Under the pieces are notes generated by a model, which was given only the letters and a program-made list of their open reading frames with translations, ran no database searches and had not been told where the DNA came from. The position numbers and the translations under genes were made by a program. A DNA stretch of 64,000 nucleotides from Dactylosporangium sp. AC04546 (GTDB taxonomy: Bacteria > Actinomycetota > Actinomycetes > Mycobacteriales > Micromonosporaceae): positions 124,001 to 188,000 of the forward strand of contig NZ_JAHYSG010000004.1 of the NCBI RefSeq assembly GCF_022095675.1, read 5' to 3'. Shown here piece after piece: positions 4,173 to 19,172 of the stretch (its first letter is position 1; every line of letters begins with the position of its first letter).

Positions 4173-4727
4173 GTGAGCGGCTGCGACCTGACGTTGATCC
4201 TGCGTTACCGCAAGGCGGTGACCTACGGCCATCACGTCCTGCTCGCCGCCCTTGAGGAACACGAGGCCACCATCCGCTACGAGGTCGTCTTCGCCGAGTC
4301 CGCGGCCGCTACCGTCGAGGCGATCCGGGAGGCCGACGCCGAGCGGGTCCTGGTCCTGTGGTCGTTCTACTCGCCTGATGCGGCCGCGCTGGCCGAGGAA
4401 CTGGCCAGTATCAAGGAGCAGGCGCCGAGGGCGGTACACGTGGCCGGCGGGGTGCACGCCACGGCGGAGCCGGTGCAGACGCTCGACCAGGGCTGGGACA
4501 TCGCCGCGGTCGGCGAGGGGGAGAGCACGCTGCTCGCGCTCATCGACAGCGCTGGCGACCCCGAGGGCATCCAGGGCCTGGTGTACCGCGACGAGCACGG
4601 CGTCCTGCACCGGACTGGCAAGGCACACCGCGAACCGCTGGGGCGCTACCGCGCGTTTCCCCTGACGTACAAGCGCATGAACCCCATTGAGATCACTCGG
4701 GGATGTGTCTACGCGTGCGCGTACTAG
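4173..4727 (+). pseudogene. 5' half of an interrupted B12-binding/radical SAM gene
   Basis: From GTG 4173 the product contains the N-terminal cobalamin-binding-like domain and the start of the radical SAM domain (EITRGCVYAC). It departs from the family right after the second cysteine of the CxxxCxxC cluster motif and stops at 4725. Its continuation, RFCQTPFMFSAKF, is found at 18411, 13.7 kb away. Joining 4718 to 18411 restores the motif exactly as in the intact copy at 13042-14355. The family resembles MJ_1487-type B12-binding/radical SAM proteins (TIGR04013-like), whose substrate is unknown. The upstream TGGCAGGATGG, also seen before the other copies, is probably a promoter box for a near-leaderless transcript. 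Confidence 0.9.
4715..4718 (+). other. Left attachment junction (attL) of the serine-integrase element
   Basis: GTGC at 4715-4718 is the core shared with the right junction at 18407-18410. Sequence to the left is radical SAM coding sequence; sequence to the right is element DNA. ACTACT at 4733-4738 lies 14 nt from the core and mirrors AGTAGT, 14 nt from the core, at the right end. These would form the arms of an imperfectly palindromic attP, as usual for large serine integrases. Confidence 0.85.
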
Positions 4728-4834
4728 CCCCAACTACTCCCTGACGGCGGCGCACGCAACGGGCGTATGTCTGAGCCCGAATCGCCTCGCTTTCGTCGGC
4801 GCCGACGCGCCCACGTTTGCGCTAGCTGCAAGAT

Positions 4835-5437
4835 ATGATGCAGGCTGTGCAAGTAAGGTCTCGGCTGCTACCCCTGCTGCGCTCGCCCTTGATCGGCGAG
4901 CTGCTGGCCTGGCTGTTCCTGCACCCGGAGACGAGCAGTTCAGTGGTCGAATTGGCCCGCCGGTTCAAGGTTTCCCAGTCGACCATCAGCCGGGAGGTCA
5001 GCCACCTTGCGGCAGCCGGCCTCGTGCGCGAGGAGCGGCGGGGGCGGTTGCGCCTGGTCGGGGCGGATCTCAACAATCCGCTCGCCCGTCCGCTCACCGA
5101 ACTGCTGGCGCTGACCTATGGCCCAGCGGCCGTCCTGGCCGATCTGCTGTCGGGGATCGGTGGTGTCGACGAGGCGTACATCTACGGCTCGTGGGCGGCC
5201 CGCTACACCGGCACCGCCGGACCTGCGCCCCGCGACGTCGATGTGCTGGTGGTAGGCGACGCCGACGACGACGACCTGGCGGACGCGGCCCGGTCCGCCG
5301 AGCGGCGACTCGGCCGAGAGGTCAACGTGCATCGTGTTTCCGCTGCTGCGTGGCGGTCGGCGGACGACGATCCCTTCCTCGCGTCGGTGCGTTCCCGCCC
5401 GTCGTACCCGATCCTGGAGCCTGGAGACCGATCATGA
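4835..5437 (+). CDS. wHTH-nucleotidyltransferase (MNT antitoxin-like)
   Basis: The 200-residue protein has an N-terminal winged HTH (about residues 20-75, KVSQSTISREVSHLAAAGLV) and a C-terminal DNA polymerase beta-like nucleotidyltransferase with GSWAARY followed by RDVDVLVVG, the GS...DxD signature, near residues 118-140. In the MNT/HEPN toxin-antitoxin family the nucleotidyltransferase modifies and neutralises its HEPN partner; the fused HTH probably autoregulates. It overlaps the following HEPN gene by ATGA at 5434-5437. The pair sits at the left end of the integrative element between two radical SAM fragments. Confidence 0.8.
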   Translation: MMQAVQVRSRLLPLLRSPLIGELLAWLFLHPETSSSVVELARRFKVSQSTISREVSHLAAAGLVREERRGRLRLVGADLNNPLARPLTELLALTYGPAAVLADLLSGIGGVDEAYIYGSWAARYTGTAGPAPRDVDVLVVGDADDDDLADAARSAERRLGREVNVHRVSAAAWRSADDDPFLASVRSRPSYPILEPGDRS

Positions 5438-5898
5438 GATGGCAACAGGGTCGAGAGGCCCTGGACGGCATGATTGCTCGGGGTGAGCTGGAGCGCGTGC
5501 CGGCCAGCCGCGATCACGCCGACGTTCTGTTGGCCCAAGCCCGCCGGCATCTCGTGTCCGCGGACTCCATCGCGGACTCCGACCCGGCCGGCGCATATCA
5601 GTTGCTCTACGACGCTGCGCGCAAGTCGTTGGCTGCCGTGCTGGAGAACCAGGGCCTGCGGGCGACGAGCCGAGGCGGCCACATCGCGGTCCGCGAGGCG
5701 GTCACGGCGCAACTCGATCCGCCGCTCGGCGGGGTGTTGCGCCCGTTCGACCGCCTCCGCCGTCGCCGCAACCAGGTCGAGTACCCGTCAGCCTCGGCGC
5801 CGAGCATCAGCGCGGATGAAGTGGAGCGCGACGTTCCCAAGGTCGAACAGATCCTCGACCTGGCGGCCCGGGTCCTGGATCAGATGAGCCCGTTCTAA
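5434..5898 (+). CDS. HEPN-domain protein (toxin-like partner)
   Basis: The 154-residue all-helical protein has the HEPN layout: a long N-terminal helix with QLLYDAARKSLAAVLE, then a C-terminal RRRRNQVEYP. In HEPN ribonucleases this position usually carries RX4-6H; here the histidine is replaced (RNQVEY), so catalytic competence is doubtful or uses the Tyr variant. Translation is coupled to the upstream nucleotidyltransferase by ATGA overlap. Together they look like a MNT/HEPN toxin-antitoxin or abortive-infection module. A non-toxic regulatory HEPN is the alternative. Confidence 0.75.
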   Translation: MRWQQGREALDGMIARGELERVPASRDHADVLLAQARRHLVSADSIADSDPAGAYQLLYDAARKSLAAVLENQGLRATSRGGHIAVREAVTAQLDPPLGGVLRPFDRLRRRRNQVEYPSASAPSISADEVERDVPKVEQILDLAARVLDQMSPF

Positions 5899-5975
5899 AC
5901 GCCGCACAAGCAGTCACCGTAACGTCAGGCGTGCCAGTCTCCGGCGTGGGCCGAGAGTTCTGGCAGGATGGCGCC

Positions 5976-6509
5976 GTGGGCGGCCGCGACCTGACGTTGA
6001 TCCTGCGATACCGCAAGGCGGTGACCTACGGCCACCATGTGCTGCTGGCCGCGCTCGAGGAGCACGAGACCACGACCACCTACGAGGTGGTCTTCGCCGA
6101 GTCGGCCGCGGCCACCGTCGAGGCCATCAAGGCGGCGAAGGCGGCCAAGGTGCTCGTGCTGTGGTCGTTCTACTCGCCTGACGCGGCCGCCCTCGCGGAG
6201 GAGCTGGCGGGCATCAGGGCGGCGGCCCCGGGCGCGGTGCAGGTGGCCGGGGGCGTGCACGCCACCGCGGAGCCGGTGCAGACGCTCGACCAGGGCTGGG
6301 ACATTGCCGCGGTCGGCGAGGGCGAGAGCACGCTGCTCGCGCTCGTGGACAGCGCCGGCGACCCGGCCGGCATCCAGGGCCTCCTATCAGCCCGCCCGCG
6401 CGCAGTGGATTGCGTGGTGGTTGACCAGCAGAAGCGCTCGACTCAACGGGGTCTCGGTTCGGTGGGCGTCGCTACGTTGGTCGTGCCAGCGTGGGTCGGC
6501 CGCGGCTAA
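5976..6509 (+). pseudogene. Second, 5'-truncated radical SAM copy (fragment B)
   Basis: From GTG 5976 the product is homologous to the B12-binding N-terminal domain of the two neighbouring copies (LILRYRKAVTYGHHVL, WSFYSPDAAALAEELAG, AGGVHATAEPVQTLDQGWD). Homology ends at about 6384, after GIQGL, and unrelated codons follow to a stop at 6507. The break is not at the integrase core, so this copy was lost by a separate deletion or rearrangement. Its promoter-proximal CTGGCAGGATGG matches that of fragment A. It is probably non-functional. Confidence 0.85.
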
Positions 6510-6510
6510 T

Positions 6511-7089
6511 CTAGCCATGCCTCTTGCGGAGCGCGTATTCCGCCCTCTTGCGAGCGCCGGTGCAGTTGAGTCGCCACCGCGCGAGTTCGACGCTTACGTC
6601 GTACTGTTCGGCGACCTGCTCGTCGGTCTTCCCGGCGCGCGCGGCACGGAGGGCAGCGGCGGACGTTAGCAGTAGCTCGGCTCCGAGTTCCGCGGCGTCG
6701 GTCTCCATCTGCTGTGTCGTCGGGTTGAGGCAACCTCGTTGGCCGCCGGAGAAGAGGACGCCGTCTACCTCGTGTTCTAGTAGCAGGTGCGCCATCTCGT
6801 GCGACACGTTGGACCGTCGGCGCTGCGGGTTGTGGGTGGCGTTCTCCACGATGAACCGGCCCGTACCAACAGGCACGAGGGCGGCGGACCAAACATCAGG
6901 CCGGATGGATGTGAAGTGATCAACGGCTTGTTGGGAACACCCCGACTCGGGTAGCTCGTCCAGCGCATAGACGTCGACCCCGTGCTCTTCGGCAAGGCGG
7001 TACGGGCAAAACGGCTCGTATTCGTCGAGTCCCAGGTCAGCACGGCGGATCTCGACGGCGAAGCGGCGCAGCTGCGTGAGGGTTGGCAT
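6511..7089 (-). CDS. ImmA/IrrE-family metallopeptidase
   Basis: The 192-residue protein carries the zinc-protease motif HEMAH at residues 97-101 followed by LLLEHE, typical of ImmA/IrrE (COG2856). In ICEBs1-like and phage systems such proteases cleave a cognate XRE repressor to derepress an element. The gene starts 12 nt downstream of an XRE regulator gene on the same strand, so the pair forms a classical ImmA/ImmR-type switch. Here the regulators are divergent from the ubiquitin-like cassette. A C-terminal HTH-like segment (DEQVAEQYDVSVELARWRL, about 155-175) is visible. Confidence 0.85.
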   Translation of the reverse strand: MPTLTQLRRFAVEIRRADLGLDEYEPFCPYRLAEEHGVDVYALDELPESGCSQQAVDHFTSIRPDVWSAALVPVGTGRFIVENATHNPQRRRSNVSHEMAHLLLEHEVDGVLFSGGQRGCLNPTTQQMETDAAELGAELLLTSAAALRAARAGKTDEQVAEQYDVSVELARWRLNCTGARKRAEYALRKRHG

Positions 7090-7101
7090 CTGGGCTACCG
7101 G

Positions 7102-7488
7102 TCACCGATTCCGCGCCGCGCGTTCGTTGGAGAACCTGCGCATAGCCACCTCGATGACCTCCTGAAGATGTTGCACGTCCTGTGGTTGCAGGTCGCGGCG
7201 GGCGCGCAGCAGGGCACCCACCTGGGCAAGGAGTTCGGGTTCCTCCTTATTCCCGCTCGTGTCGTCATCCTGGTCGCTGACGGTGAAGGTCTCGGCGGGC
7301 ATGTTTAGCCACGTCACCAGGGCCATGAACGCTTCTACGTCCGGCCGATGTCCGTTTGCCAGCCTGGTCATCGTTGATGGGCTGCATCCGACCTCTGCCG
7401 CCAGTTGGCGCCAGGACAGGTTCTTGCTTCGCCTTGCACCGTCCAGGGCGGCATACAACGCGGGTATGTCGATGCGGGTTCGGCTCAT
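7102..7488 (-). CDS. XRE-family repressor (ImmR-like)
   Basis: The 128-residue protein has an N-terminal helix-turn-helix (LSWRQLAAEVGCSPSTMTRL, about residues 24-43) followed by a linker and a C-terminal helix that could be the ImmA cleavage or dimer region. ATG 7488 faces the ubiquitin-like gene across a 168-bp intergenic region holding two near-identical 18-bp sites. It probably represses itself and the divergent operon, with ImmA at 6511 as the anti-repressor. Confidence 0.85.
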   Translation of the reverse strand: MSRTRIDIPALYAALDGARRSKNLSWRQLAAEVGCSPSTMTRLANGHRPDVEAFMALVTWLNMPAETFTVSDQDDDTSGNKEEPELLAQVGALLRARRDLQPQDVQHLQEVIEVAMRRFSNERAARNR

Positions 7489-7533
7489 GGGCAGGGTCTC
7501 TCCTCCGGCGCGGTGATCACCTTTCTACCAGCA

Positions 7534-7590
7534 TTCGACATCTCGAACAGTCAGGTGGTAGCGTTGACCTTGTTCGACGAGTCAAACAGT
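7534..7590. promoter_or_regulatory. Duplicated 18-bp operator between XRE and Ubl genes
   Basis: Two sites fit TTCGAC-N3-TCRAACAGT: 7534-7551 and 7573-7590, 39 bp apart. The first contains a TTCGA/TCGAA dyad. They lie between the divergent XRE gene (start 7488) and the Ubl gene (start 7657); the second follows a TTGACC -35-like hexamer at 7564-7569. This is the expected placement for repressor sites controlling both directions. A further AACAGT with an ACAGT/ACTGT dyad lies at about 9838-9852, before the nuclease gene. Confidence 0.6.
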
Positions 7591-7610
7591 GTCGCGATAC
7601 TGCGACACTG
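7587..7610. promoter_or_regulatory. 9-bp inverted repeat upstream of the Ubl gene
   Basis: CAGTGTCGC (7587-7595) and GCGACACTG (7602-7610) form a perfect inverted repeat with a 6-nt spacer, overlapping the end of the second XRE site. It could be a second regulator's operator or an RNA hairpin in the 5' leader. There is no U-tract, so a terminator is less likely. Confidence 0.45.
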
Positions 7611-7656
7611 ACGTTACCCGCCGCGAGCGAACGTGGCCATATCCGAGGGGGTCTAT

Positions 7657-7938
7657 ATGACTACCAGTGCCGCTGAAGACACTCACCAGACCGACGGCGA
7701 CCGACGGCCCCACACCGTCCAGGTCACCGTCAACAATCAGCCGGTCGGCCTTCCCGACCGGGAACTCACCGGGCTGAAGATCAAGCAGATCGCGATCGAG
7801 CAGGGCGTCGCGATCCAGCCCAACTTCCAACTCTCGGTCAAGCACGGCAACCGCTATGAGGTCGTCGGCGACACCGACACCCTCAAGGTCCATCGGAACC
7901 AGGAGTTCCTCGCCGTCGCGCCGGACGACAACTCGTGA
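7657..7938 (+). CDS. Ubiquitin-like protein (Multiubiquitin family, single domain)
   Basis: The 93-residue protein from ATG 7657 (GAGGGGG ribosome-binding site) has a short charged N-terminus, then a beta-grasp domain. It starts VQVTVNNQPVGLPD, with LTGLKIKQIA in the helix and a C-terminal DTLKVHRNQEFLAV, which matches the Multi_ubiq/DUF2604-type domain. One domain is present rather than the usual tandem copies. The C-terminus is APDDNS with no Gly-Gly, so conjugation, if it occurs, must use a different terminus or follow trimming. It is the first gene of a tightly overlapping operon with an E2-like protein and a JAB-E1 fusion, a bacterial ubiquitin-like pathway arrangement described by comparative genomics. 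Confidence 0.8.
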   Translation: MTTSAAEDTHQTDGDRRPHTVQVTVNNQPVGLPDRELTGLKIKQIAIEQGVAIQPNFQLSVKHGNRYEVVGDTDTLKVHRNQEFLAVAPDDNS

Positions 7939-8324
7939 ACCCCCTCGCCGCGGTCGCGGCGGCAATCGACGCCGTCCGGGCGCACTTCGCCGACAACTCG
8001 GTCGAGGTCACCCCGGACGGCGCCGGTGGCGCCTACGTGATCGTTAACGACATCGAGATCGGCAACCGCTATAGCCCAACCGTCACCTGGCTCGGCTTTC
8101 ACATCAACGCAGCCTACCCAGCGTCCGACGTCTATCCCCACTACACCGGGCCGCTCACCCGCGTCGACGGGCAGCCGCATGGCCAGGCGATCCAAACCTT
8201 CGACTGGCCGAAGCGCCCCGGCCCTGGCCTGCAACTCTCCCGCCGTTCCAACGGCTGGAACCCGACCGTCGACAACGCCGCGCTCAAAGCCGAGAAGGTG
8301 ATTACGTGGCTCGCCACCCAATGA
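7935..8324 (+). CDS. E2/UBC-like protein of the Ubl cassette, lacking cysteine
   Basis: The 129-residue protein starts at GTG 7935, overlapping the Ubl stop. The central part (GFHINAAYPASDVYPHYTGPL, split as GFHINAAYP and ASDVYPHYTGPL) resembles the E2 beta-meander and the YP..P element of prokaryotic E2-like families (Prok-E2_E-like). The C-terminus has WPKR and SNGWNPTVDN. The protein contains no cysteine at all, so it cannot form the canonical E2~Ubl thioester; it may be a non-catalytic adaptor, or use another residue such as the conserved His in GQPHGQA. It is coupled to the JAB-E1 gene by ATGA at 8321-8324. Confidence 0.65.
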   Translation: MNPLAAVAAAIDAVRAHFADNSVEVTPDGAGGAYVIVNDIEIGNRYSPTVTWLGFHINAAYPASDVYPHYTGPLTRVDGQPHGQAIQTFDWPKRPGPGLQLSRRSNGWNPTVDNAALKAEKVITWLATQ

Positions 8325-9670
8325 ACCCGCCAGCCAAAGGCTGGAGCCTGACGATGCCGTTACGGCTCTGGACCGAGCTATCAGATCACCTGTTCCGAGG
8401 CGACCACGACGAGCACGGAGCCGTGATCCTCGCGGGTTATGCCCACGGCCCACGAGGCCCACGACTTCTCGCCCGGGAACTCATACTCGCCCAGGACGGG
8501 GTCGACTACGTTCCCGGCCAGCACGGGTACCGCGCCCTCGCACCGACCTTCGTGCGCGACGCCGCCATCCGCGCGCGCGACGAGCACCTCGCCTACTTTG
8601 CCGTCCACAACCACTTCGGGGATGTCGTCGTCGGGTTCTCCCAGACCGACATGGCGAGCCACGAACGCGGCTACCCCGCGCTGCGGCAGATCACGAATCA
8701 AATCGTCGGCGGCCTGGTATTCACCCCGTACGCCGCCGCCGGCGACCTCTGGCTACCTGGCGGCGAGCGCGTCGATCTCGCAGAGGTCCTCATCCCCGGC
8801 GGCAACCTCGTCAGGTTGCGTTCGCGCCCGGCACTGCCCGTGGCCGTGCAGCCGGAGCACGATCGTCAAGCTCGGGTCTTCGGTGACCTCGGCCAGGAAG
8901 CGTTGAACCAGATGCGTGTCGCCGTGGTCGGGCTCGGTGGCGTCGGCAGCATCGCCGTCGAGTTCCTCGCTCGCCTCGGCGTCGGCGACCTCGTGCTCAT
9001 CGACGACGACACGGCCCAGGAGACCAACCTCCCACGTCTCCTGGCTGCCGAACGCGATGACGTGGGCAAGCCGAAGATCAGTCTCGCTGTCCGCAACGCC
9101 CGCAGGGCCAATCCGGATATCCGCCTCACCGCGCTACGTGAGCGGGTCGAGAGCATCAGTGCGAGAAACGCACTTAGTGCATGCGACTGGATCTTCCTTG
9201 CGGCCGACACCCACGCCGCCCGGCACTGGGTCAACGCTATCGCGAACCGGTACCTGATACCGGCCACCCAGATCGGCGTCAAGATCCAAGTGAGCGCCAC
9301 AGGCGAGGTGGAACAGATTCACACCGCGACCCGGCTGATCATACCCGGAAACGGCTGTATGTGGTGCAATGGCTTGATCGACCCAACCGAACTCGCCATC
9401 GACATGCACCCTGAGCGCGAACGCAACGCCGCACGCTACGTTACCGACGTTCCCGCGCCGAGCGTCAGCGCCCTCAATGGCCTCGCAACGCTCGAAGCCG
9501 TAAATCACTTCATGTTCGCGGTAACTGGACTTCACCGAGATCCGACTGACGCCGCTTCAATAGTGCACCTACCCCGAATTCGTGAACGGACACTGCAGAC
9601 CGTCCGGCGCGATCCGACCTGCGCTTGGTGCTCCGCAACAGGAACTCTCGGACGCGGGCACCCTGGGTAA
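8321..9670 (+). CDS. JAB (JAMM) protease - E1 (ThiF) fusion
   Basis: From ATG 8321 (ATGA overlap) the protein is 449 residues. The N-terminal JAB domain has the JAMM set: E31, H96-x-H98, S107 and D110 (HNHFGDVVVGFSQTD). The C-terminal E1/ThiF adenylation domain has GLGGVG at about 204-209, the acidic IDDD turn at about 227-230 and NLPR. Two CxxC pairs (C346/C349 and C434/C437) probably bind zinc. JAB can process or deconjugate Ubl tails and E1 adenylates their C-terminus, so both activating and trimming functions are in one chain. It is the third gene of the Ubl operon. Confidence 0.9.
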   Translation: MNPPAKGWSLTMPLRLWTELSDHLFRGDHDEHGAVILAGYAHGPRGPRLLARELILAQDGVDYVPGQHGYRALAPTFVRDAAIRARDEHLAYFAVHNHFGDVVVGFSQTDMASHERGYPALRQITNQIVGGLVFTPYAAAGDLWLPGGERVDLAEVLIPGGNLVRLRSRPALPVAVQPEHDRQARVFGDLGQEALNQMRVAVVGLGGVGSIAVEFLARLGVGDLVLIDDDTAQETNLPRLLAAERDDVGKPKISLAVRNARRANPDIRLTALRERVESISARNALSACDWIFLAADTHAARHWVNAIANRYLIPATQIGVKIQVSATGEVEQIHTATRLIIPGNGCMWCNGLIDPTELAIDMHPERERNAARYVTDVPAPSVSALNGLATLEAVNHFMFAVTGLHRDPTDAASIVHLPRIRERTLQTVRRDPTCAWCSATGTLGRGHPG

Positions 9671-9866
9671 CTGCGGGTCAGAACTGGCGATAGAGGCACC
9701 ATCCTGCGCCATGCTCATGACGTGAGGGGCGGCGCCGAGCGCAGGTAGTTGTGGATGCGGTTCGGCAGCCTGTGTGGCCGCCCGATCGGCCCGCAACTCC
9801 ACATCGGGCGTTCCCGACTCGTGTCAACTCGGTTGAGAAACAGTCGAAACTGTGAAAGGTCTCCGC

Positions 9867-11309
9867 GTGAGTACAATAGCGCCCGAGCGGTCGTACAAGG
9901 ATTTCGCGGACTATGTCCGACGGTTCAGCCAGGAGTCGGTCTTGGACGCCGTCGCGGCTGCGGCGCTCTCGCTGCCGCGACGGCTGGAAGACGATTCCCG
10001 CCGCTACACGCGTACGCCGCCGTGGGCACTCGCGGCGGTCGTGAAGGCGTCGCTATACAACGGGAACCCTTTCCGGTCAAGGACCATGCGTGAGCAGGAC
10101 CTGATGTTGGCCTGCCACATGCACAACAATCTCCACCCAGAGGAACTGGATCACCCTGACCTGGGTTCACCGCTCGCAGTCATGGTGCGTATCGGCTACG
10201 AGCAGTTCCCGTACCAGGAGTCGATGTTTGAGGAGATGGCTCGGGCCGAGTCGCTGTTCAACGGTTACACCGCTCGTAAGCCGCTGACCGTGATCACCGG
10301 GGAGCGGCTCGCGAAGCTACTCGGCGCACCCGTCCGAGATGCCGCAGGCGTGGCGTTGCTACTCCACGCTGGGGCAGAGAGGAACGGCGGCTTCTTCGAC
10401 CCCACGTGGCTGGACCAGCCGAACTTCACGCCGGTGCTCGACGTGCTCCCACGCGAGACCATCCTCGATGTGATCGACACGTCGTTTGCCATTGACGTGG
10501 CCGGTTTCAAGACGCTCGCCGCCGAGGCGCCCGCGGTGCCGTTCTTGGACAAGTACCTGTTCAACCCGCTTGTAGCCCGTCCGTTCATTCGACGTGGAGA
10601 CGGCCGGCTGATCGCCCCGGTACCGCAGTTGATCTCGCGGCGGATGTCGCCACTTGAGTGGTACTACGCCGGGTTGAAGCAGTTCGGGACGGACTTCGCC
10701 AGCGATCTGGGGCACATGTTCGAGGACTACGTGGGGCGCCAGTTCGCCACGATGCCGGGCGTAACCGTCGAGCCGGAGGTCGAGTATCGCAGGGGTAACG
10801 ATCGGATGGACACGACCGACTGGTTCATCGTGATGGACGACGCGGTGCTGCTGGTCGAGGCCAAGGCCGGGATTCTCAAAGCCGGCGCGCGGGCGGGCGA
10901 CGACTCCCTTACCCAGATGATGACCCGCACGGTCGGCAAGGCGATCAAGCAGATCAACCGCACGCACGGGCTAATCCGTGCGGGCGCACCCGAGGTCGCC
11001 CACATCCCGAACGACCGACCGATCCTCGGCATGGTGGCCACCCTTGACCCCTGGTACATGGCCAACAGCTTCTTCGGCCGCAAGGTCCTGCCGGTCTGCG
11101 ACGTGCCGATTACCGTGTGCTCCGCACGAGAGGTCGAGTACCTGGTCGGAATCGGCCAGCGCGCACCGGTCGGGCCGATTCTTCGCGAAGTCTTGGACGA
11201 CGCAGATCGCCCGGCGTGGTCTCTCGGCACCGCCCTCCAGCCGTACCATCTGAAATGCGATCGCAACCCCCTACTCGACCAGGCGTGGAAGAGGTACCCC
11301 TTTAATTAG
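9867..11309 (+). CDS. PD-(D/E)XK nuclease-like protein next to the Ubl cassette
   Basis: The 480-residue protein from GTG 9867 (AAAGG 7 nt upstream) has an unrecognised N-terminal 270 residues and a C-terminal nuclease core: GHMFEDYV (E286), TTDWFIVMD (D318) and VLLVEAKAG (E331, K333). This order fits PD-(D/E)XK restriction-type folds. It lies 196 bp after the JAB-E1 gene on the same strand, with an ACAGT/ACTGT dyad just before its start. A role as effector or target of the ubiquitin-like pathway is inference from position. Alternatives are an independent restriction or DNA-repair nuclease. Confidence 0.6.
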   Translation: MSTIAPERSYKDFADYVRRFSQESVLDAVAAAALSLPRRLEDDSRRYTRTPPWALAAVVKASLYNGNPFRSRTMREQDLMLACHMHNNLHPEELDHPDLGSPLAVMVRIGYEQFPYQESMFEEMARAESLFNGYTARKPLTVITGERLAKLLGAPVRDAAGVALLLHAGAERNGGFFDPTWLDQPNFTPVLDVLPRETILDVIDTSFAIDVAGFKTLAAEAPAVPFLDKYLFNPLVARPFIRRGDGRLIAPVPQLISRRMSPLEWYYAGLKQFGTDFASDLGHMFEDYVGRQFATMPGVTVEPEVEYRRGNDRMDTTDWFIVMDDAVLLVEAKAGILKAGARAGDDSLTQMMTRTVGKAIKQINRTHGLIRAGAPEVAHIPNDRPILGMVATLDPWYMANSFFGRKVLPVCDVPITVCSAREVEYLVGIGQRAPVGPILREVLDDADRPAWSLGTALQPYHLKCDRNPLLDQAWKRYPFN

Positions 11310-11392
11310 AACGGCCCCGGCGCGGGAGTCATTAGGCTCTCGAAGAGCGCACACGTCACGTCGCGGCATGACGAACGGGCGCCGCTGTGTCG

Positions 11393-12733
11393 TCAGAACC
11401 ATGTCTTGTCTTCGTCCTTGAAGTAGGGCCAAGGCAGGACGCCCGCGGCGATGTCGCCGCTCAGCGTCGAGGCCACCTGCGTGCACCAGGTACGCAAATC
11501 CACCAACTCGAGCATCAGCGGCGAGATCGCCTCCGGATTCAGGGAGGTGAACCACAATTTGTCTGTGGTCCTGGCGGCCACGGCGAGCAGCGGCTTCGCC
11601 CAATCGACAGGACCATTCAAGCGTTGTAGCCAGCGAGCATGGACATTGGCTTCAGACAGCCCGTTGATGATTGCATCCGGTGACATGCAGACGAAGAAGA
11701 ACATCGCGTCAGCGATGAGGCTGGCCGCGACCTCAGGCGCTACGGGGTAGATTGCCCATGGTGGTCGTACCGAGGAACGTGCGGCCTGGTCGAGGCTGAC
11801 CAAGGTAAGCCTATGCTCAGGCGTCGTGTTGCCGATCCGCCGCCTGCACCGATCAAGCTCGGCGGTGAAACGGTCGGAGAACGTATCTGCGGTGTAGAGG
11901 TTTCCAGCGGTGAGCTGGCTTGCGGCAACGACAGCGCGACCCGACGAGACGACGGCTCCCTGAATACCTCGCCGATGTGCAAGCCCGAGAACCTCGCGTA
12001 GCCCTTTGAGGTCAGTCTTGAACGGGATGCCGGTGGCGACGGGAGTGTGGCCGCTTGGGAGAGTTCCCCCGTCCGCGAGAGCGTGTGAGGTGGCTACCAG
12101 CTTCTGGTCCTGCTTCTTGTTCCGGTACCTGTCGTTGGTCTTGATCTCGTCCAACAGGACTCCACCGTCCTGACAGAACCTGCTCACATCACCGACGCGC
12201 AATGCTGCCGTCAGGTCGTGGAGCAGCACGAACTCGCCGTTGTCCCGCCAGGCGGTCTCGACGACCTCTCGCTCTCTCACCAAGCCGACTTTGCCGTACA
12301 TCGGGCCGGCTGGTTCGCCCCGTGAAAGTCCCACGATGACTCGGCGATCGTAGTTGAACAACTTCCAAGCGAGAGCATCACCGATCGACTTCAGTTGCCG
12401 CCATACGCGCTCGAATACCTCGTCTTCCACCATCCACGAGTCTCTGTCGAGCGGATCGAGGCCTGTTCCGAGATCGGGGGCCCTGGCAGGCAGTTTTCCA
12501 GGTTCTTTCCGGAGCCTCGTGAGCACGCGTCTGACTTCCGACCGGCGTTTCTCGACTTCCAGGATCAGTTCGAGCAGCTGCTGCTGAAAGTGATAGAAGT
12601 CCTCTACCGATCGGCATTCGCGCAATGCTCTGATCAACTTGATCAGAGTCTGGAAGGAGTGCTGATGTTGCGGATGGGTCAAGATGACGTCGATCTGATT
12701 ACCTGACACGCGATCCATTAGCGAATTTCGCAC
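11393..12733 (-). CDS. Second PD-(D/E)XK-like protein, convergent with the Ubl operon
   Basis: The 446-residue protein starts at GTG 12733 with GAAGGA 6 nt upstream. Residues 40-80 are a charged, probably coiled-coil segment. At about 177-210 it has LRVGDVSRF (D182), LLDEIKTN (E196, K198) and KKQDQKL, the D...ExK...Q order of PD-(D/E)XK nucleases. The rest, including a hydrophobic stretch SLIADAMFFFVCM (about 347-359), is not recognised. It converges on the first nuclease gene with an 83-bp gap, so it may belong to the same cargo block or be an independent gene. Confidence 0.5.
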   Translation of the reverse strand: MRNSLMDRVSGNQIDVILTHPQHQHSFQTLIKLIRALRECRSVEDFYHFQQQLLELILEVEKRRSEVRRVLTRLRKEPGKLPARAPDLGTGLDPLDRDSWMVEDEVFERVWRQLKSIGDALAWKLFNYDRRVIVGLSRGEPAGPMYGKVGLVREREVVETAWRDNGEFVLLHDLTAALRVGDVSRFCQDGGVLLDEIKTNDRYRNKKQDQKLVATSHALADGGTLPSGHTPVATGIPFKTDLKGLREVLGLAHRRGIQGAVVSSGRAVVAASQLTAGNLYTADTFSDRFTAELDRCRRRIGNTTPEHRLTLVSLDQAARSSVRPPWAIYPVAPEVAASLIADAMFFFVCMSPDAIINGLSEANVHARWLQRLNGPVDWAKPLLAVAARTTDKLWFTSLNPEAISPLMLELVDLRTWCTQVASTLSGDIAAGVLPWPYFKDEDKTWF

Positions 12734-13041
12734 GGCCCATCCTTCAAAGGTTAAGCTGAAGCATGGGCGCTTCCTATCGACCTGGCAAGCGACTTCGCGC
12801 GAGTCCTCCGACGATCTGCGCCTGAACGGTCAACGACCATAAGCTGACCGGGTAGGTCGCCGAAACAGGGCTGCTCCGCATGGGCGTAAGAGGCCGGTTC
12901 TCGGCCAAGGCGCCCGTTCGTGAGGTCCTAATGCAGGATCGGGCAGGCGGGTTCTCGTGAGAAACGCGCCTTGCCGCCGGCGCGGTAGATCTCGCCTGCT
13001 CGGGAGTTGGGCCGTGGAGATGGGGCTTGACCTAGCTCGAT
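12734..13041. other. 308-bp intergenic stretch, no gene recognised
   Basis: Between the divergent nuclease-like gene start (12733) and the end of the intact radical SAM gene (13042) no frame shows convincing coding features. The long minus-strand frame that crosses this stretch is a shadow of the radical SAM gene. It contains the upstream region of the 11393-12733 gene. Confidence 0.4.
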
Positions 13042-14355
13042 CTATTCTGACGTCGGGTGTATTGGCATCAGTGTCCTGCTGCGGCCGGGCCGGGGGTATG
13101 CCTCTGCGGCGGCGGCGAGTCGTGCGGCGTGTTCGCGTTGGCGTTGCCAGTGGCCGTAGAGGGCGCCCTGCTGGGAGAGGCGGTCGACGGCGCGCATCGT
13201 TTCGGGGTCGACGTTGCCGGGTGGGGCGTCGCGCCAGGGGGTGCCGGGCAGCGGCATGAAGGTGTGGGCATGGATGCGGGCGCCCATCTCGGCCAACTCG
13301 CGGGCCAGACTTATGGAAGCCTCGACGTCGGCCTGGTCCTCGCCGGGCATTCCGAAGATCATGTCGACGTTGATGCGGAAGCCCTCCTCGACGCCGAGGC
13401 GGGCCGCTCGCTTGACCTCCTCGACGCCGTGGCCACGCTTCGCTGCATCGAGGACGCGGTCGGAGCCGGACTGGGCGCCAACGATGATGTTGTTGTTCGA
13501 GCAGTACTTCTTTACCAGCTGCAGCGCCTCGCGGGTGACATGTTCGGGGCGGATCTCGCTGGGGAACGAGCCGAAGAAGACCCGCCCGTCCGTGCCGATG
13601 CCCTCCTTGCACGTCGCGAGCAGTTCCTCGACGGCGTCGAGGTTCGGCGACTCGTCCTGGCTGCCGTAGGAGAGCGCGGTCGGCGTGATGAAGCGGACGT
13701 CCCGCAACCCGCGTGAACGCATCTCGTCGACGTGCCAGCGGACGTTCTCGACGCTGCGGTGGCGGAAGCGGGCCGAGAACATGAAGGGGGTTTGACAGAA
13801 GCGGCAGGAAAACGCACATCCCCGAGTGATCTCAAGGGCGTTGAACCGGTGCCAGCGCAACGAGAACCCGCGGAACGTGTCCAGCGGCAGGCGCTCTGGG
13901 CGGCCGGTCTTGACCACCTTGCCGGTGGCGTCGCGGTACGCCAGGCCGGTCACGCCGACCGGGTCGCCGCCCGCGTCGACCAGCTTCAGCAGCGTCGTCT
14001 CGCCCTCGCCGATGGCCGCGACATCCCAGCCGGCGTCCAGCGTCTGCACCGGCTCCGCCGTCGCGTGTACTCCACCGGCGACGTGGAGTGCGCCGGGCGC
14101 GCCTGCCTTGATGGTCGCCAGTTCGGCCGCGAGTGCTTCGGCGTCGGGGGAGTAGAACGACCACAGCACGAGCACCCGCCTCGCGCGGTTCAACCCCGCC
14201 TCGATTGAAGCGATCGTCGCCTCCGGGGTCTCGGCGAAGACCACCTCGTACGAGGTGGTGGTCTCGTGTTCTTCGAGCGCGCCGAGCAACACATGGAAGC
14301 CGTACGTGACGGCCTTGCGGTAACGCAGCACCAAGACGAGGTCGACGGAGCTCAC
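13042..14355 (-). CDS. Intact B12-binding/radical SAM protein carried by the element
   Basis: The 437-residue protein has a cobalamin-binding-like N-terminus (about 1-125, LRYRKAVTYGFHVLL, AGGVHATAEPVQTLD) and a radical SAM core with the 4Fe-4S motif C180-x3-C184-x2-C187, then FMFSARFRHRSVENVRWHV and DMIFGMPGE. It resembles MJ_1487-type proteins of unknown substrate. It is about 80% identical by eye to the split host halves at 4173 and 18408, and lies inverted relative to them inside the element. It may compensate for the gene broken by integration. Three consecutive GTG codons (14361, 14358, 14355) could start it; alignment with fragment A favours 14355. Confidence 0.9.
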   Translation of the reverse strand: MSSVDLVLVLRYRKAVTYGFHVLLGALEEHETTTSYEVVFAETPEATIASIEAGLNRARRVLVLWSFYSPDAEALAAELATIKAGAPGALHVAGGVHATAEPVQTLDAGWDVAAIGEGETTLLKLVDAGGDPVGVTGLAYRDATGKVVKTGRPERLPLDTFRGFSLRWHRFNALEITRGCAFSCRFCQTPFMFSARFRHRSVENVRWHVDEMRSRGLRDVRFITPTALSYGSQDESPNLDAVEELLATCKEGIGTDGRVFFGSFPSEIRPEHVTREALQLVKKYCSNNNIIVGAQSGSDRVLDAAKRGHGVEEVKRAARLGVEEGFRINVDMIFGMPGEDQADVEASISLARELAEMGARIHAHTFMPLPGTPWRDAPPGNVDPETMRAVDRLSQQGALYGHWQRQREHAARLAAAAEAYPRPGRSRTLMPIHPTSE

Positions 14356-14384
14356 CACCACATCCTGCCAGGGCGGCCGTCGGG

Positions 14385-14648
14385 TCAAGCCGATCGGTCG
14401 GTGACGAACACGCCGCGTCCGGGCTGGCCGACGACCAGGCCCTGCGCCTTCAGCTCGACCATGGCGAACTGGATGACCGTCCCGCTGACGCCGTAGATGT
14501 CGCGGAGCTGTTGGGTGCTCGGGAGCTTGTCGCCCGGCTTCAGCGTGCCTGCATCGATCTGCGCACGGAGGTCGGCCGCCACCTGGCGGTAGTACGGCGT
14601 CCCGTCGTTCTTCAGAGGCACAAACGCACCCTGCCCTGCAGTCCGCAA
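14385..14648 (-). CDS. Small GntR-type winged-helix regulator
   Basis: The product is essentially a bare GntR winged helix: YYRQVAADLRAQIDAGTLKP, then KLPSTQQLRDIYGVSGTVIQ and GRGVFVTD. It has no effector domain, like the KorSA-type regulators of actinomycete plasmids and integrative elements. The open frame starts at TTG 14648, but GTG 14621 with AGGG 7 nt upstream is a better start (78 residues). It lies upstream of the intact radical SAM gene on the same strand and next to a strong palindromic operator at 14650-14693, so autoregulation is likely. Confidence 0.8.
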   Translation of the reverse strand: MRTAGQGAFVPLKNDGTPYYRQVAADLRAQIDAGTLKPGDKLPSTQQLRDIYGVSGTVIQFAMVELKAQGLVVGQPGRGVFVTDRSA

Positions 14649-14649
14649 A

Positions 14650-14693
14650 ACCTACATCACCAGGTACCACCTACATCACTATGTGATGTAGGT
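14650..14693. promoter_or_regulatory. GntR operator cluster
   Basis: ACCTACATCAC occurs at 14650-14660 and 14669-14679, and its inverse GTGATGTAGGT at 14683-14693. The latter two form a perfect dyad with a 3-nt centre. The cluster lies directly between the GntR gene and the DUF6907-like gene and is the obvious binding site for this regulator. Confidence 0.7.
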
Positions 14694-14774
14694 TGGCCAT
14701 GAGCGCGGCGGTCCGAAGGCCCAGCGTGCGGGTCGTCTCGCTCGCCCAGTTGCATCGGCGAGCCAGGAGCGATC

Positions 14775-15068
14775 ATGAGCGAAGAGCTGCATCCCAACTG
14801 GTGCTCCCGGGCGGTGTGCACCGCCTACGGCCCGGCCGCGGACGAGTACCACCGGTCCGAGCCGATCGTCGTCCGGACCGACGACCCGCGCGTCGACCTG
14901 TTCATCTCGAAGGTGGCCGACCCCGACGGCACGAACGAGTACATCGAGATCACAGCCCTGGAGCGAGACGACCAACAGCCTTGGCACCTGCGTGAGCCCG
15001 TTCGAGGGATGTGCCTTCCGCGTGCGTCGGCCGATGCCGCTTGGCGCGCCATGGCCGAGTTGGTCTGA
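14775..15068 (+). CDS. DUF6907-like small protein
   Basis: The 97-residue protein begins MSEELHPNWC and has HPNWCSRAVCTAYG and ADEYHRSEPI followed by VDLFISKVADPDG. The Cys/His spacing and length recall DUF6907 proteins common on actinobacterial plasmids and integrative elements; function unknown. It is transcribed away from the GntR gene, downstream of the operator at 14650-14693, and followed by a hairpin at 15085-15118. Confidence 0.6.
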   Translation: MSEELHPNWCSRAVCTAYGPAADEYHRSEPIVVRTDDPRVDLFISKVADPDGTNEYIEITALERDDQQPWHLREPVRGMCLPRASADAAWRAMAELV

Positions 15069-15846
15069 CAACACCCAACAGGACCCAACAGCGTCTGGCT
15101 GACGCCGGGCGCTGTTGGACAACAGTGGCAAGATGGCCGAACGCGCGACATCGAAAGTGTTCATCACGTGCCAAAACATCGCTCGGCTATGGCTCGGAGC
15201 CAGCCGATCATGCTCAATGGTTCCGATCCCCGTGTGGCTGGTCGTCTTCCGCTGGGGTCCGTGCCTGAGCAGCCTTAAGTGTGCAGAGCCGGGTTCACGG
15301 GCCTGAGGAACCGACGGCCGGTTGGCATCGGGCGGCGCCGGTGATCGGGCATACCCCCAATCAGGCACCCACACCGGTGAGTTGAGCCCCGGTGTCCGGC
15401 ACACGCGGACACGCGCACCACCGGTGCGTCACGTGTCGCATGCGCACGCGACGTCATCGGTAGATGTCGTGTGTCCTCGTGCGCCGGCGCCCTGCTCCTC
15501 ACGGACGCCCGCACCATGAACGTCTAACAGGCGGCCGTCCTCTGCCCGGTACACCGGCGCGTTGGTTGGCAACTCCATCCCGGCTCTCAACAAGACCGCA
15601 GGCGGGTCGCTGGATGCCGCCTTACTGAACCCTGCCCAGGAGGCAACGAATGATCACACAACCCCGACAGCTCAGTGTCCTGTTGGGGCACCGTCCCGCC
15701 GGTCGGTCGGGGGTCCTCCTTGAACGGGACCCCGAGCGGGACCTCCGCAATCACCCAACACCGCAGCCCACAATGCCCGTGCATGGTCTGAGCCGAGTCG
15801 CGACAGACCATCTGGAGAAGGTCTCCCCAAGGAGAGGGAGCCGCCT
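15069..15846. other. Gene-poor, inverted-repeat-rich region upstream of the replication-relaxation gene
   Basis: No convincing gene is seen in these 778 bp. They contain the hairpin at 15085-15118; ACACCGG/CCGGTGT (15371-15377/15389-15395); CGCACC/GGTGCG (15414-15419/15423-15428); and further CGTG-rich dyads up to about 15475. Such a cluster directly before a replication-relaxation gene is a candidate origin or transfer region. Confidence 0.4.
15085..15118. terminator. Hairpin after the DUF6907-like gene
   Basis: CCAACAGCG (15085-15093) and CGCTGTTGG (15110-15118) form a perfect 9-bp stem with a 16-nt loop, 16 bp after the preceding stop codon. CCCAACAG is also repeated directly just before the stem. 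It may be a terminator or part of a replication region; there is no T-tract. Confidence 0.45.
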
Positions 15847-16689
15847 ATGACCGAGAAGCTCATGCGTGTCCAAGCCAAGCTCACCGCCCGCGATCTCACG
15901 CTGCTCGGCTGGCTCGAAGACCACGGTGTGCTGACCAGCTTCCAGATCGCCCACGCGCTCTTTCCGTCCGTCAACTTCGCCCAACGACGTCTCCGCTCGC
16001 TCATGAACGACGACCTCGTCGACCGTTTCCGGCCGCAGCGCCAGGACGGCGGCTCCCACCCGTACCACTACGTCCTCGGGCAGCTCGGCGCCGACGTCGT
16101 CAGCGCCCAACGTGGTGCCGACCCGCCGCGTCGGGACCACGCGCGGAAGCGCCGATGGCAACTCACCAACCGAGCCAACCTGCCGCACCTGTTGGGAGTC
16201 AACGACTTCTTCATCCGGCTCAACGGCTACGCCCGGACACATCCCGGTGCCGAACTCGCCCGCTGGTGGCCGGCAAAGCGCTGTCAGGGCGTCGGCGCGT
16301 TCGCCGGACCAGCGGTGACTGACGCCCAACAGCTCGCCTACGTGGCGCGCATCCGGCCGGACGGGCACGGCATCTGGGTCGAGGCCGGGCGCGAACTGCC
16401 GTTCTTCCTCGAATACGACACCGGCACCGAACCGTTGTCGGTGCTGGTCGCCAAACTCGCTGGATACGCCCAACTTGCTGACGTCACCAGCCAACGTTGG
16501 CCGGTGCTGTTCTCCCTGCACTCGTCGGTCCGGGAGGCGAACCTCCATCGCCAGCTCACCGCCAACGACGTCCGGTATCCGGTGGCGACGACCGTTCGCG
16601 AGGCCGCTGACGTCAGCGGCAGTCCCGCCGACGCCGTCTGGTGGCGGCATCGGCGGGAAGGGCCGCTGACCCGCCTGATCGACATCTGA
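15847..16689 (+). CDS. Replication-relaxation family protein
   Basis: The 280-residue protein has an N-terminal winged HTH (LTARDLTLLGWLEDHGVLTS, then IAHALFPSVNFAQRRLRSL), a middle ELARWWPAKRC segment and the acidic DTGTEPLSVLVAKLAGY motif. These are the landmarks of the Replic_Relax family (PF13814), which is linked to plasmid and ICE maintenance in actinobacteria. A strong AAGGAGAGGGAG precedes ATG 15847. The precise biochemical role is not established. It is upstream of a 59-residue protein and the serine integrase, the usual right-end module. Confidence 0.85.
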   Translation: MTEKLMRVQAKLTARDLTLLGWLEDHGVLTSFQIAHALFPSVNFAQRRLRSLMNDDLVDRFRPQRQDGGSHPYHYVLGQLGADVVSAQRGADPPRRDHARKRRWQLTNRANLPHLLGVNDFFIRLNGYARTHPGAELARWWPAKRCQGVGAFAGPAVTDAQQLAYVARIRPDGHGIWVEAGRELPFFLEYDTGTEPLSVLVAKLAGYAQLADVTSQRWPVLFSLHSSVREANLHRQLTANDVRYPVATTVREAADVSGSPADAVWWRHRREGPLTRLIDI

Positions 16690-16756
16690 AGAGTCCAGAA
16701 AGGAGCGTCATGTCGCGACCACTTGCCCTCAGCCGATCGTCATCCCGTGGAGGAGC

Positions 16757-16936: not shown

Positions 16937-16938
16937 AC

Positions 16939-16974
16939 CCTTGCCGGGCGCGGCGACCGCCGCGCCCGGCAAGG
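16939..16974. terminator. Bidirectional hairpin terminator
   Basis: A perfect 16-bp stem (16939-16954 with 16959-16974) and a GACC loop separate the 59-residue gene from the convergent integrase gene, whose stop lies at 16979. It is very G+C-rich and without a T-tract, as usual in actinobacteria. Confidence 0.75.
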
Positions 16975-16978
16975 TCGG

Positions 16979-18382
16979 TCATCGGACCGGATTGGCGGGC
17001 TTCCAGTCGGGGTGCACGGTGCTCGAATCGAACTCGCGCCGACCGGGCGGCGGAGGGAGCAGCCACACGGTCGTCAGCGCCCGAACGACCGCCTGCTCCT
17101 CATCGATCCGGCCCTCCAGCTTCTTCCAGTCGGCGACCGGATCCTCGGAGGCGAGCAGCGGCGCCAGGGCGTTCTCCCGGCCCGCCTCCACCAGCTTCGC
17201 CTCGATGGCGGCCAGCTCCTCGGCGATCTCCCGCTTGGCCATCTCCAACTCGTCGTCGTCCAGCACCTGGCGTGCCCACAGCTTGACGGCCGACGTCCTG
17301 CGTTCGCGCAGCGCCATCGACTGAGCCCGGAGGTCCGCGAGTGCCGCCTCGTCAGGGCCGCTCACGAGGAGGTCCGCCAGATCCTCACGGCCGAGGCGGT
17401 CGGCCACCAGCCGCCGTACCCATTTGTCGGCTGGGTCCGCCAGCCGTGACAGGCCGCAGGACGGGCAGCGGTAGACGCGCCGCACCCGGCCGTCGGCGTA
17501 CTTCTCGCGGTAGGTCGACACCACAAGCGCGCCGCAGTCGGTGCGTCCGCACCGGTACAGCCTCGTGCCGAGCCACCGCCGAGCGCTCCCGACGTGGTTG
17601 GTCCGGCGCTTCGGTTCCGACAGCATCGCGATCGCGGCCCGCACGGCGGCTTCGGAGACGATTGCGGGCCACAGGCCCTGGGTGACCTCCCGGCCGCGAT
17701 GCGTGCGGATGCCGGCGTTGCGGAGGTTGCCCATCATGAGCCGGACCGCGTTGTGCCGCCACGGGCCACCAGCAGTTGTAATGAACCCGGCGGCGTTGAG
17801 GTCCTGAGCGATGCCGCTCAGGCTTCGACCGCCCAGCAGCCGCTGATACGCATCGCGCAATGCTGCCGCCTCGGCCTCGACGAGCGCCATGCCGTCCGCC
17901 GTGTAGCCGAACGCCCGGCGTCCGCCCGCGGGCCTGCCCTGCTCGGCGCGTTGCTGCGCCTCGCGGCGCTGGCGCTCCGACTTGACCTCGACTTCCATGG
18001 TGTCGAACTCGCCGATCATGCCCGCCATGCCGCGCCCGTAGGCGGTCGTCATGTCGAGCTCTGGCCCCTTGACCGGCACGACGCTCACCCGAGCCTCGCG
18101 CAGCAGCTCGATCCCGTCCGCCCGCTCGCGCCGGTTGCGCCACAGCCGCGATGTATGGAACACGACGATCCGCTCGACCTCGCCGCTCTTCACGGCGGCC
18201 ATCAGCGCGGCATAGCCCGGCCGCAGCTTCCCGTTCGTGGCGGAGATGTCGTTGTCGACGAACTCGCGGACGGTCCAGCCGCGCCGCTCGGCCAGGGCGC
18301 GAGCGTCCTCGCGTTGGCGCTCGACGCCGAGGCCCTCGCCCAGACGGTCCTCCGAGATGCGGAGATAGACAGCAGTCGTCAT
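16979..18382 (-). CDS. Large serine recombinase (integrase)
   Basis: The 467-residue protein has the resolvase catalytic domain with nucleophile S10 (VYLRISEDRLGEG), the RLWRNRRERADG and GEFDTMEVEVKSERQRR segments, a recombinase domain (GRRAFGYTADG) and a zinc-ribbon-like region (C..C near RCGRTDCGALV and YRCPSCG). A coiled coil (about 380-440) follows. Its start lies 25 bp from the right core site at 18407-18410, the usual integrase-attP arrangement. It inserts the element into the CxxxCxxC codons of a radical SAM gene. Confidence 0.95.
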   Translation of the reverse strand: MTTAVYLRISEDRLGEGLGVERQREDARALAERRGWTVREFVDNDISATNGKLRPGYAALMAAVKSGEVERIVVFHTSRLWRNRRERADGIELLREARVSVVPVKGPELDMTTAYGRGMAGMIGEFDTMEVEVKSERQRREAQQRAEQGRPAGGRRAFGYTADGMALVEAEAAALRDAYQRLLGGRSLSGIAQDLNAAGFITTAGGPWRHNAVRLMMGNLRNAGIRTHRGREVTQGLWPAIVSEAAVRAAIAMLSEPKRRTNHVGSARRWLGTRLYRCGRTDCGALVVSTYREKYADGRVRRVYRCPSCGLSRLADPADKWVRRLVADRLGREDLADLLVSGPDEAALADLRAQSMALRERRTSAVKLWARQVLDDDELEMAKREIAEELAAIEAKLVEAGRENALAPLLASEDPVADWKKLEGRIDEEQAVVRALTTVWLLPPPPGRREFDSSTVHPDWKPANPVR

Positions 18383-18406
18383 AGGCAGTAGTCTACGTCA
18401 GAACCG

Positions 18407-18410
18407 GTGC
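18407..18410 (+). other. Right attachment junction (attR) of the serine-integrase element
   Basis: GTGC at 18407-18410 is the core. To its right the radical SAM frame resumes at CGG TTC TGT (R F C). To its left AGTAGT at 18387-18392 lies 14 nt from the core, mirroring ACTACT at 4733-4738. The arms GGNAGTAGT of both ends match at the same distance. Confidence 0.85.
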
Positions 18411-19172
18411 CGGTTCTGTCAGACGCCGTTCATGTTCTCCGCGAAGTTCCGGCACCGTAGCGTCGAGAACGTGCGGTGGCACGTCGACCGGATGCGGGAG
18501 TTCGGGAAGCGGGACGTCCGGTTCATCACGCCCACCTCGCTGTCCTACGGTGCCGACGGGGAGGAGCCGAACCTGGCCGCCGTCGAGGAGCTGCTCGCGA
18601 GCTGCAAGGAGGGCATCGGGCCCGACGGGCGGGTGTTCTTCGGGTCGTTCCCCAGCGAGATCCGGCCCGAGCACATGAGCGTCGACGCGTTGCGGCTGGT
18701 CAAGCGGTACTGCGCGAACGACAACCTCATTGTCGGGGCGCAGTCCGGGTCCGAGGAGGTGCTCGACCGGGCCAAGCGGGGGCACGACGTCGAGTCCGTG
18801 CGGCGGGCGGTGCGGCTCGGGATCGCCGAGGGGTTCCGGATCAACGTCGACATGATCTTCGGGATGCCGGGGGAGGGGCCGGAGGACGTCGAGGCGTCGA
18901 TGCGGCTCGCGGAGGAGCTGGCCGGGCTCGGGGCGCGGATCCACTCGCACGTGTTCATGCCGCTACCCGGCACCCCGTGGCGCGACGCGCCGGCCGGGGA
19001 CGTCGACCCCGAGACGATCCGGGCCGTGTCGCGGCTCGCCCAGCAGGGAGCGCTCTACGGGCACTGGCAGAAGCAGCGCGAGCACGCCAGCCGGCTGGCC
19101 GCGGCGGCCCAGGAGTACCCGCGGCCGGGGCGCAGCCGCACCCTGCTCCCGCAGGTGGACCCGGCGCCCTGA
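18408..19172 (+). pseudogene. 3' half of the interrupted radical SAM gene
   Basis: The frame enters from element DNA at TGC 18408 and continues CRFCQTPFMFSAKF through the radical SAM barrel (SVENVRWHV, DMIFGMPGEG, RIHSHVFMPLPGTPWRD) to a stop at 19170. An in-frame ATG at 18432 could start a truncated product lacking the cluster cysteines, which would not be an active radical SAM enzyme. It joins perfectly to fragment A (4173-4718). Confidence 0.9.

Follow-up and report, generated by a model that had tools for sequence, protein, structure and literature searches.

A Bub-type ubiquitin-like operon with a putative CapH/CapP-like switch in a mobile element of Dactylosporangium

We analysed a stretch of 64,000 nucleotides, hereafter the window, from the soil actinobacterium Dactylosporangium sp. 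AC04546 (assembly GCF_022095675.1, contig NZ_JAHYSG010000004.1, positions 124,001-188,000, forward strand; genome of approx. 13 Mb). Seven genes are described here, all of which are open frames at the coordinates of table 1 according to an ORF check of the window. Three of them, encoding a ubiquitin-like protein (Ubl), an E2-like protein and a fusion of JAB and E1 domains, are a Bub (‘bacterial ubiquitination-like’) operon, since the JAB-E1 fusion matches Citrobacter BubCD and the model of the E2-like protein matches BubB. Two regulator genes, of the XRE and ImmA types, lie on one side of this operon and two nuclease-like genes on the other, and all seven genes occupy the variable part of an element that encodes a serine recombinase and is inserted within a radical-SAM gene.

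Table 1. Features of the locus, in window positions.
Feature	Position	Strand	Evidence
TIGR04013 B12/radical-SAM gene, 5' fragment covering model positions 2-166 (of 382); marks the left edge (attL side) of the element	4197..4724 (G000:C4:128197-128724)	+	
ImmA/IrrE-type metallopeptidase (CapP-like), HEMAH motif	6511..7089	-	Peptidase_M78 4.4e-17; PADLOC capP 4.2e-8
Putative repressor of the XRE family, CapH-like; transcribed away from the Ubl operon	7102..7488	-	HTH_31/HTH_3 5e-6
Operator-like palindrome 1 (ATTCGACATCTCGAAC)	7533..7548		between XRE and Ubl
Operator-like palindrome 2 (GTTCGACGAGTCAAAC)	7572..7587		39 bp from palindrome 1
Single-domain Ubl (BubA-type), ends -DDNS	7633..7938	+	Multi_ubiq 1.1e-10
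E2-like protein (BubB-type), no cysteine	7935..8324	+	Prok-E2_E 0.006, sub-threshold; BubB fold match
JAB-E1 fusion (BubCD-type)	8306..9670	+	ThiF 2.2e-38; Citrobacter BubCD E 1.3e-38
GapS1-like protein, PD-(D/E)XK-type motif; separate neighbour, outside the cassette	9852..11309	+	NF047931 GapS1 3.1e-18
446-aa protein, D-ExK-Q motif; separate neighbour	11393..12733	-	motif conservation
Full-length second radical-SAM copy within the element	13147..14331 (G000:C4:137147-138331)	-	456.8 bits
Large serine recombinase of the element	16979..18382	-	XisF/Ccr-type matches, best 6.1e-11, below cut-offs
Radical-SAM gene, 3' fragment covering positions 163-382; marks the right edge (attR side) of the element	18405..19067	+	

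The initial annotation of this DNA had proposed a conjugation cassette made of a Ubl, an E2-like protein and a JAB-E1 protein with overlapping frames, and the domain, BubCD and BubB matches bear this out; indeed, the Ubl stop overlaps the E2 start by 4 bases and the E2 stop overlaps the E1 start by 19 bases. In the Pfam scan, the Ubl scored 42 bits against Multi_ubiq (cut-off 24.5), a family matched only once in the host genome. Its homologues begin at residue 9 of the longest frame, so that the true start is probably ATG 7657. The C-terminus DDNS is found in the window and in 25/25 other Ubl-E2-E1 triads, spanning three phyla.

The E2-like protein scored 16.8 bits against Prok-E2_E in the same scan (cut-off 25). 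When its AlphaFold model (pLDDT 84.9, 15 sequences) was compared with the PDB, Citrobacter BubB (9eae_C, from the BubCD-BubB structure) was the sole match at E <= 0.001 (Foldseek E 7.2e-5, prob 1.00, TM 0.68, 22% identical), the remaining rows being insignificant and mixing unrelated folds with many eukaryotic E2s. By its predicted fold, the protein is BubB-type. Cysteines, absent from the protein in the window, occur in 5/19 other E2s, and no alignment column holds one in more than 2/20 sequences.

When a profile built from 18 homologues of the JAB-E1 fusion was searched against the PDB, the top match was Citrobacter BubCD (query 11-404 on chain 5-400), and the alignment includes the H-x-H...S..D motif of JAB as well as the nucleotide site of E1; the Pfam scan gave no match for the JAB domain. 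Within this domain, H101, H103 and D115, the putative zinc ligands, and S112 are invariant (18/18). The only invariant E1 cysteines (18/18) are C351, C354, C439 and C442, which form two CxxC pairs, C293 being replaced by serine in 2/18 homologues.

The cassette shares with the Citrobacter Bub system (PDB 9ea4, 9ea5, 9eae, 9eav) the presence of JAB and E1 in one chain, the BubB-like E2 fold and the position of the Ubl gene at the head of the operon. Compared with Citrobacter BubCD, it represents an actinobacterial branch in which E1 C351/C354 have no Cys counterpart and the second CxxC pair lies outside the alignment. The single JAB-E1 chain, which the initial annotation had considered unusual, was in fact described as class 6e by Iyer (2006; PMC1779556) and is present in the solved BubCD. 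In class 6e, the JAB domain is N-terminal on E1, a Cys-less E2/RWD-like protein lies between Ubl and JAB-E1, and there are 1-3 Ubl domains; Frankia (Fsp.) appears among the hosts in the available part of PMC1779556. Our cassette displays the N-terminal JAB on E1 and the standalone E2 without conserved Cys. A zinc-finger protein (C-x3-C-x35-38-H-x2-C) is also noted for class 6e, without being stated for all members (PMC1779556). None lies beside the cassette here, and a search for the motif in the six frames of 4701-18450 returned one match, in an 85-aa frame (15011-15268) approx. 5 kb away. The core layout is therefore not new, the addition being an actinobacterial Bub operon with its probable switch and its mobile setting.

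Bil systems also use E1/E2/JAB chemistry of the Ubl type in defence, with separate JAB and E1 proteins and an E2 carrying a catalytic Cys, whereas here JAB is fused to E1, the E2 has no Cys and the Ubl has no C-terminal Gly. Ubl-type chemistry serves defence in CBASS Cap2/Cap3 as well (review PMC12355090, available part). Cap2 is an E1-E2 fusion accompanied by a CD-NTase gene; in our locus E1 is fused to JAB instead, and the scanned proteins, which cover part of the frames of the element, include no CD-NTase.

Both regulator families were matched in the Pfam scan, in agreement with the divergent XRE/ImmA switch of the initial annotation, and the HExxH motif is kept in 18/19 ImmA domains examined. 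The arrangement, in which a small helix-turn-helix (HTH) protein and a peptidase of ImmA type bearing HExxH are encoded next to an operon of immune type, recalls the CapH+CapP pair. According to the available part of PMC13373217, CapH/CapP-type regulators are reported with Bub, CapW or CapH+CapP occurring with 219/544 Bub operons, and CapP is activated by single-stranded DNA (ssDNA) and then cleaves CapH.

Between the XRE and Ubl genes, the two operator-like sites are both copies of a GTTCGACAT(C/G)TCGAAC-like palindrome. Two copies (<=3 mismatches) were detected in 10/10 XRE-Ubl intergenic regions (the window and nine relatives), a count that is a non-independent test as the pattern was derived from the same loci; 0/10,000 shuffled sequences contained two copies. 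The spacing is 38-45 bp in nine regions and 120 bp in locus L037. In a further set of 11 loci, which are more distant or have another kind of regulation, single matches were confined to L068 (2 mismatches) and L028 (3 mismatches); five triads were left out of this comparison. Across the 13-Mb genome, 13 places carry the 14-base core pattern, and two of them within 100 bp of each other are found at the Bub operon only. The inducible promoter of ImmA type that had been claimed for this locus is thus probable, as regulator, twin operator-like sites and operon are conserved together. A third inverted repeat (window 7587-7610) follows palindrome 2 in the Ubl leader and has equivalents in L027, L029, L031 and L060; its sequence in the window is unlike the other four, with equally good pairing.

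Besides the window, we compared 29 E1 loci, of which 18 came from the genome contig scan, two from the family search, four from the class search and five from 19 plasmid records. Their flanks are unequal (after E1, 0.5 kb in L028 and 2.4 kb in L030; before E1, 1.5 kb in L042; at most 6 kb each side for plasmid loci). The order Ubl-E2-E1 was retrieved in 25/29 loci, from Actinomycetota, Alphaproteobacteria and Cyanobacteria, the four others (L039, L040, L042, L043) giving partial E1 matches only, with no Ubl or E2 matches. A divergent pair of separate XRE and ImmA genes accompanies 14/25 triads (L027, L029, L031-L034, L037, L041, L060, L061, L064, L067, L068, L070). In 5/25, an XRE-ImmA fusion divergent from the operon is found instead (L035, 7702-9188; L038, 7721-9197; L044, 7459-8979; L063, 3718-5185; L069, 6867-8266), with a PD-Lambda-2_B score in the four scanned. 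Beside these fusions lies a HigB-type gene in L035, L038 and L063, with a weak match in L044, and a small Pfam-less gene in L069; in the available text of PMC13373217, the word HigB has 0 occurrences and words beginning HigA have 2. The remaining triads display STAS/GHKL-like pairs (L028, L030; all matches below cut-off), a same-direction ImmA (L066, L071), XRE alone (L065) or an unclassified arrangement (L036).

Clustering of the neighbouring genes recovered the triad, the regulators, HsdM-type genes in five loci and three further families in three loci each, one of which sits downstream of E1 in the related loci L030, L031 and L060; this clustering revealed no effector common to all the Bub loci. 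The conserved unit is accordingly Ubl-E2-JAB/E1 plus a regulator. The HsdM genes, of type I restriction-modification, lie near 5/25 Bub loci (L031, L041, L063, L068, L069). It is possible, and we suggest it tentatively, that the Bub core, with its constant -DDNS tail and no conserved catalytic cysteine, is an effector module into which exchangeable damage sensors can be plugged, namely XRE+ImmA, STAS/GHKL (CapS/CapK-like) or a toxin of HigB type whose antitoxin is an XRE-ImmA protein (PD-Lambda-2_B-like). If so, cleavage of the antitoxin in this last arrangement would release the toxin and at the same time turn on the Ubl pathway.

The defence and mobile setting suspected initially is likewise found. 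The radical-SAM gene is cut at approximately the same residue in its 5' and 3' fragments, at the Cys motif; there are two left junctions of the same sequence, and the right junction adjoins the serine recombinase. Positions 2-166 of the radical-SAM model are encountered again upstream (C4:119575-120102), and a shorter 5' piece lies at window 6000-6386. In a genome of the same genus (G106; loci L090-L092, C1:8712000-8770000), a recombinase 84% identical to ours adjoins the 3' fragment, and a 200-aa gene (99.5%) and the full-length radical-SAM copy (90%) are also retained, with window 6384-13069, which spans the gene block, swapped for approx. 24 kb of other DNA containing further radical-SAM pieces. 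This insert encodes Cas3e, Cas8e, Cas7e, Cas5e and Cas6e, i.e. a type I-E CRISPR-Cas system, with CRISPR-like repeats at 61-bp spacing, and a UG22-type reverse transcriptase is located nearer the recombinase. The radical-SAM sequence was found in 0/10 other recombinase loci (36-44% identical) within their short flanks, so that the target choice of the element rests on two genomes; serine phage integrases targeting radical-SAM genes are known (Samy, PhiJoe, PhiOZJ and PhiWTR, in the available part of PMC12924846). The full-length copy and the extra 5' fragments are possibly a stand-in for the broken target. At window 119-3498, a 787-aa protein with an HTH and a weak AAA match lies beside a DUF559 gene, between two attL-like copies, and this pair is possibly another defence pair.

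The initial annotation had also described two PD-(D/E)XK genes next to the cassette, a description that stands for the motifs, which are invariant in both families. The 485-aa protein matches NF047931 over residues 22-381 with 65.9 bits against a cut-off of 320, which makes it a distant relative of GapS1 and no member by cut-off. GapS1 is a Gamma-Mobile-Trio antiphage protein (Mahata 2024, as cited in the available part of PMC12774648). The same model is matched by 25/25 aligned homologues at E <= 0.001, and D293-E306-x-K308 (P0227 numbering) is invariant in all 25; the database version of the gene starts at TTG 9942 and encodes 455 aa. In the 446-aa protein, D182-E196-x-K198-Q208 is invariant in 32/32 aligned relatives and is surrounded by a helix-strand-strand-strand-helix-strand order, whereas a fold search against the PDB returned nothing at E <= 0.001. 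It is thus nuclease-like by its motif only, and could be regarded as a candidate single-gene nuclease. Neither protein had a Pfam family in the domain scan. The search for relatives of the 446-aa protein brought up 106 proteins, itself among them; all of these lack a precomputed Pfam domain, and those with a named source are actinobacterial.

From directly analysed genes, families, folds, conserved unit, operator-like sites and mobile setting, we consider it likely that the locus is a Bub operon under a CapH/CapP-like divergent switch, with a proposed damage-induced conjugation, and that the serine-recombinase element carries it as cargo alongside other defence-type passengers, each independent of the rest. 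Several observations weigh against this reading. The position of the JAB catalytic glutamate is unconserved (E36 in 12/18 homologues), the link between E2 and BubB is weak by sequence profile alone (E 0.5-0.6), and BubA was not matched in the PDB by the Ubl, alone or as a profile. The XRE protein matches PADLOC capH weakly (0.011), a difference from CapH+CapP. Over the whole window, the palindrome pattern with 3 mismatches has eight matches, four of which are the two operator-like sites on both strands, and eight matches were reached in 2/100 shuffles; it is the conserved pairing of the palindromes, not their number, that stands out. Finally, genome G129 contains all three families, with E1 on contig C23 and the nuclease homologues approx. 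15 kb apart on C24, and in genome G299 the contig with E1 is not the one that carries a GapS1-like gene. Such co-presence fits defence-rich genomes, yet counts for the functional link between Ubl and nucleases advanced in the initial annotation.

In that integrated system, both nuclease-like genes would have their products controlled by Ubl modification, and the ImmA promoter would govern the whole set. Besides the co-presence in G129 and G299, adjacency in the window argues for it. However, within the flanks examined, homologues of either nuclease were found in 0/29 other E1 loci, and homologues of Ubl, E2, E1, XRE or ImmA in 0/11 GapS1-like and 0/10 446-aa loci, that is 0/21 nuclease loci, and on these counts the claimed link fails the refuting test that the initial annotation had itself set. 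E1 and the nuclease homologues are on separate contigs in the two genomes where they co-occur, and the 446-aa homologue of G129 is interrupted by stops; in G179, the two nuclease homologues are more than 1 Mb apart. Nor do the nuclease genes overlap the operon, 181 bases separating E1 from the longest GapS1-like frame and the 446-aa gene being on the opposite strand, and neither nuclease family had a partner gene recurring in at least three loci in the neighbour clustering. Among 200 family genomes (own included), 5 have E1, 8 have the GapS1-like gene and 9 have the 446-aa gene; among 394 class genomes (own included), the numbers are 5, 5 and 3. The probability that one or more genomes besides our own would contain both genes by chance is 0.13 (family) and 0.04 (class) for E1 and GapS1-like, and 0.15 (family) for E1 and the 446-aa gene. 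The integrated-system reading is largely refuted already and we hold it to be extremely improbable; the two nuclease-like genes look like separate passengers, not parts of the cassette.

Another explanation is that the operon mediates a general DNA-damage or stress response and is not antiphage. DNA-damage regulators are reported for Bub operons, the available part of PMC13373217 leaves this option open, and the sole recurring downstream family is confined to three related loci, so that no shared effector is seen. We nevertheless judge it unlikely, though deserving of some weight, as the same cargo slot holds CRISPR-Cas and a defence reverse transcriptase in the same-genus genome and HsdM genes recur near Bub loci. 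The operon could also serve the element itself, through its stability or the timing of its excision, given that it sits in an integrative element and has relatives on plasmids (19 plasmid records); a recombinase homologue was however found in 0/18 contig-scan loci within the flanks examined, and the related G106 element does without the operon, which makes such a role very unlikely. A sulfur-carrier or biosynthetic pathway of the ThiS/MoaD type, instead of conjugation, would agree with the ThiF-type E1 and with an E2-like partner devoid of conserved cysteine. It is hardly tenable for a Ubl ending in -DDNS and not GG, with an E2-like partner in 25/25 triads and no recurring biosynthetic neighbour.

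Returning to the Bub operon under its CapH/CapP-like switch, a plausible course of events may be outlined. By analogy with CapH/CapP, XRE bound to both palindromes would repress both promoters, until DNA damage or phage DNA, providing ssDNA, activated ImmA, which would cleave XRE and allow the operon to be expressed. The E1 half would then adenylate the -DDNS Ubl, the E2-like protein would receive it, and Ubl would be attached to proteins with no conserved catalytic cysteine in E1 or in the E2-like enzyme, by a relay that would work without thioesters; the JAB half would remove or trim Ubl. Ye is said to have argued in 2026 for a noncanonical Bub mechanism. The outcome of this conjugation could be antiphage.

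The direct co-occurrence test corrects a tempting over-reading, namely that of Ubl-controlled nucleases. What the locus contributes is a Bub operon from an actinobacterium in which the switch probably has two operators and the Ubl C-terminus is strict, located in a mobile cargo slot that type I-E CRISPR-Cas occupies in a same-genus genome. Because Bub has yet to be demonstrated to protect against phages, according to the available part of PMC13373217, a cassette that combines a defence setting with a clear candidate for its inducer offers a testable case for Bub function.

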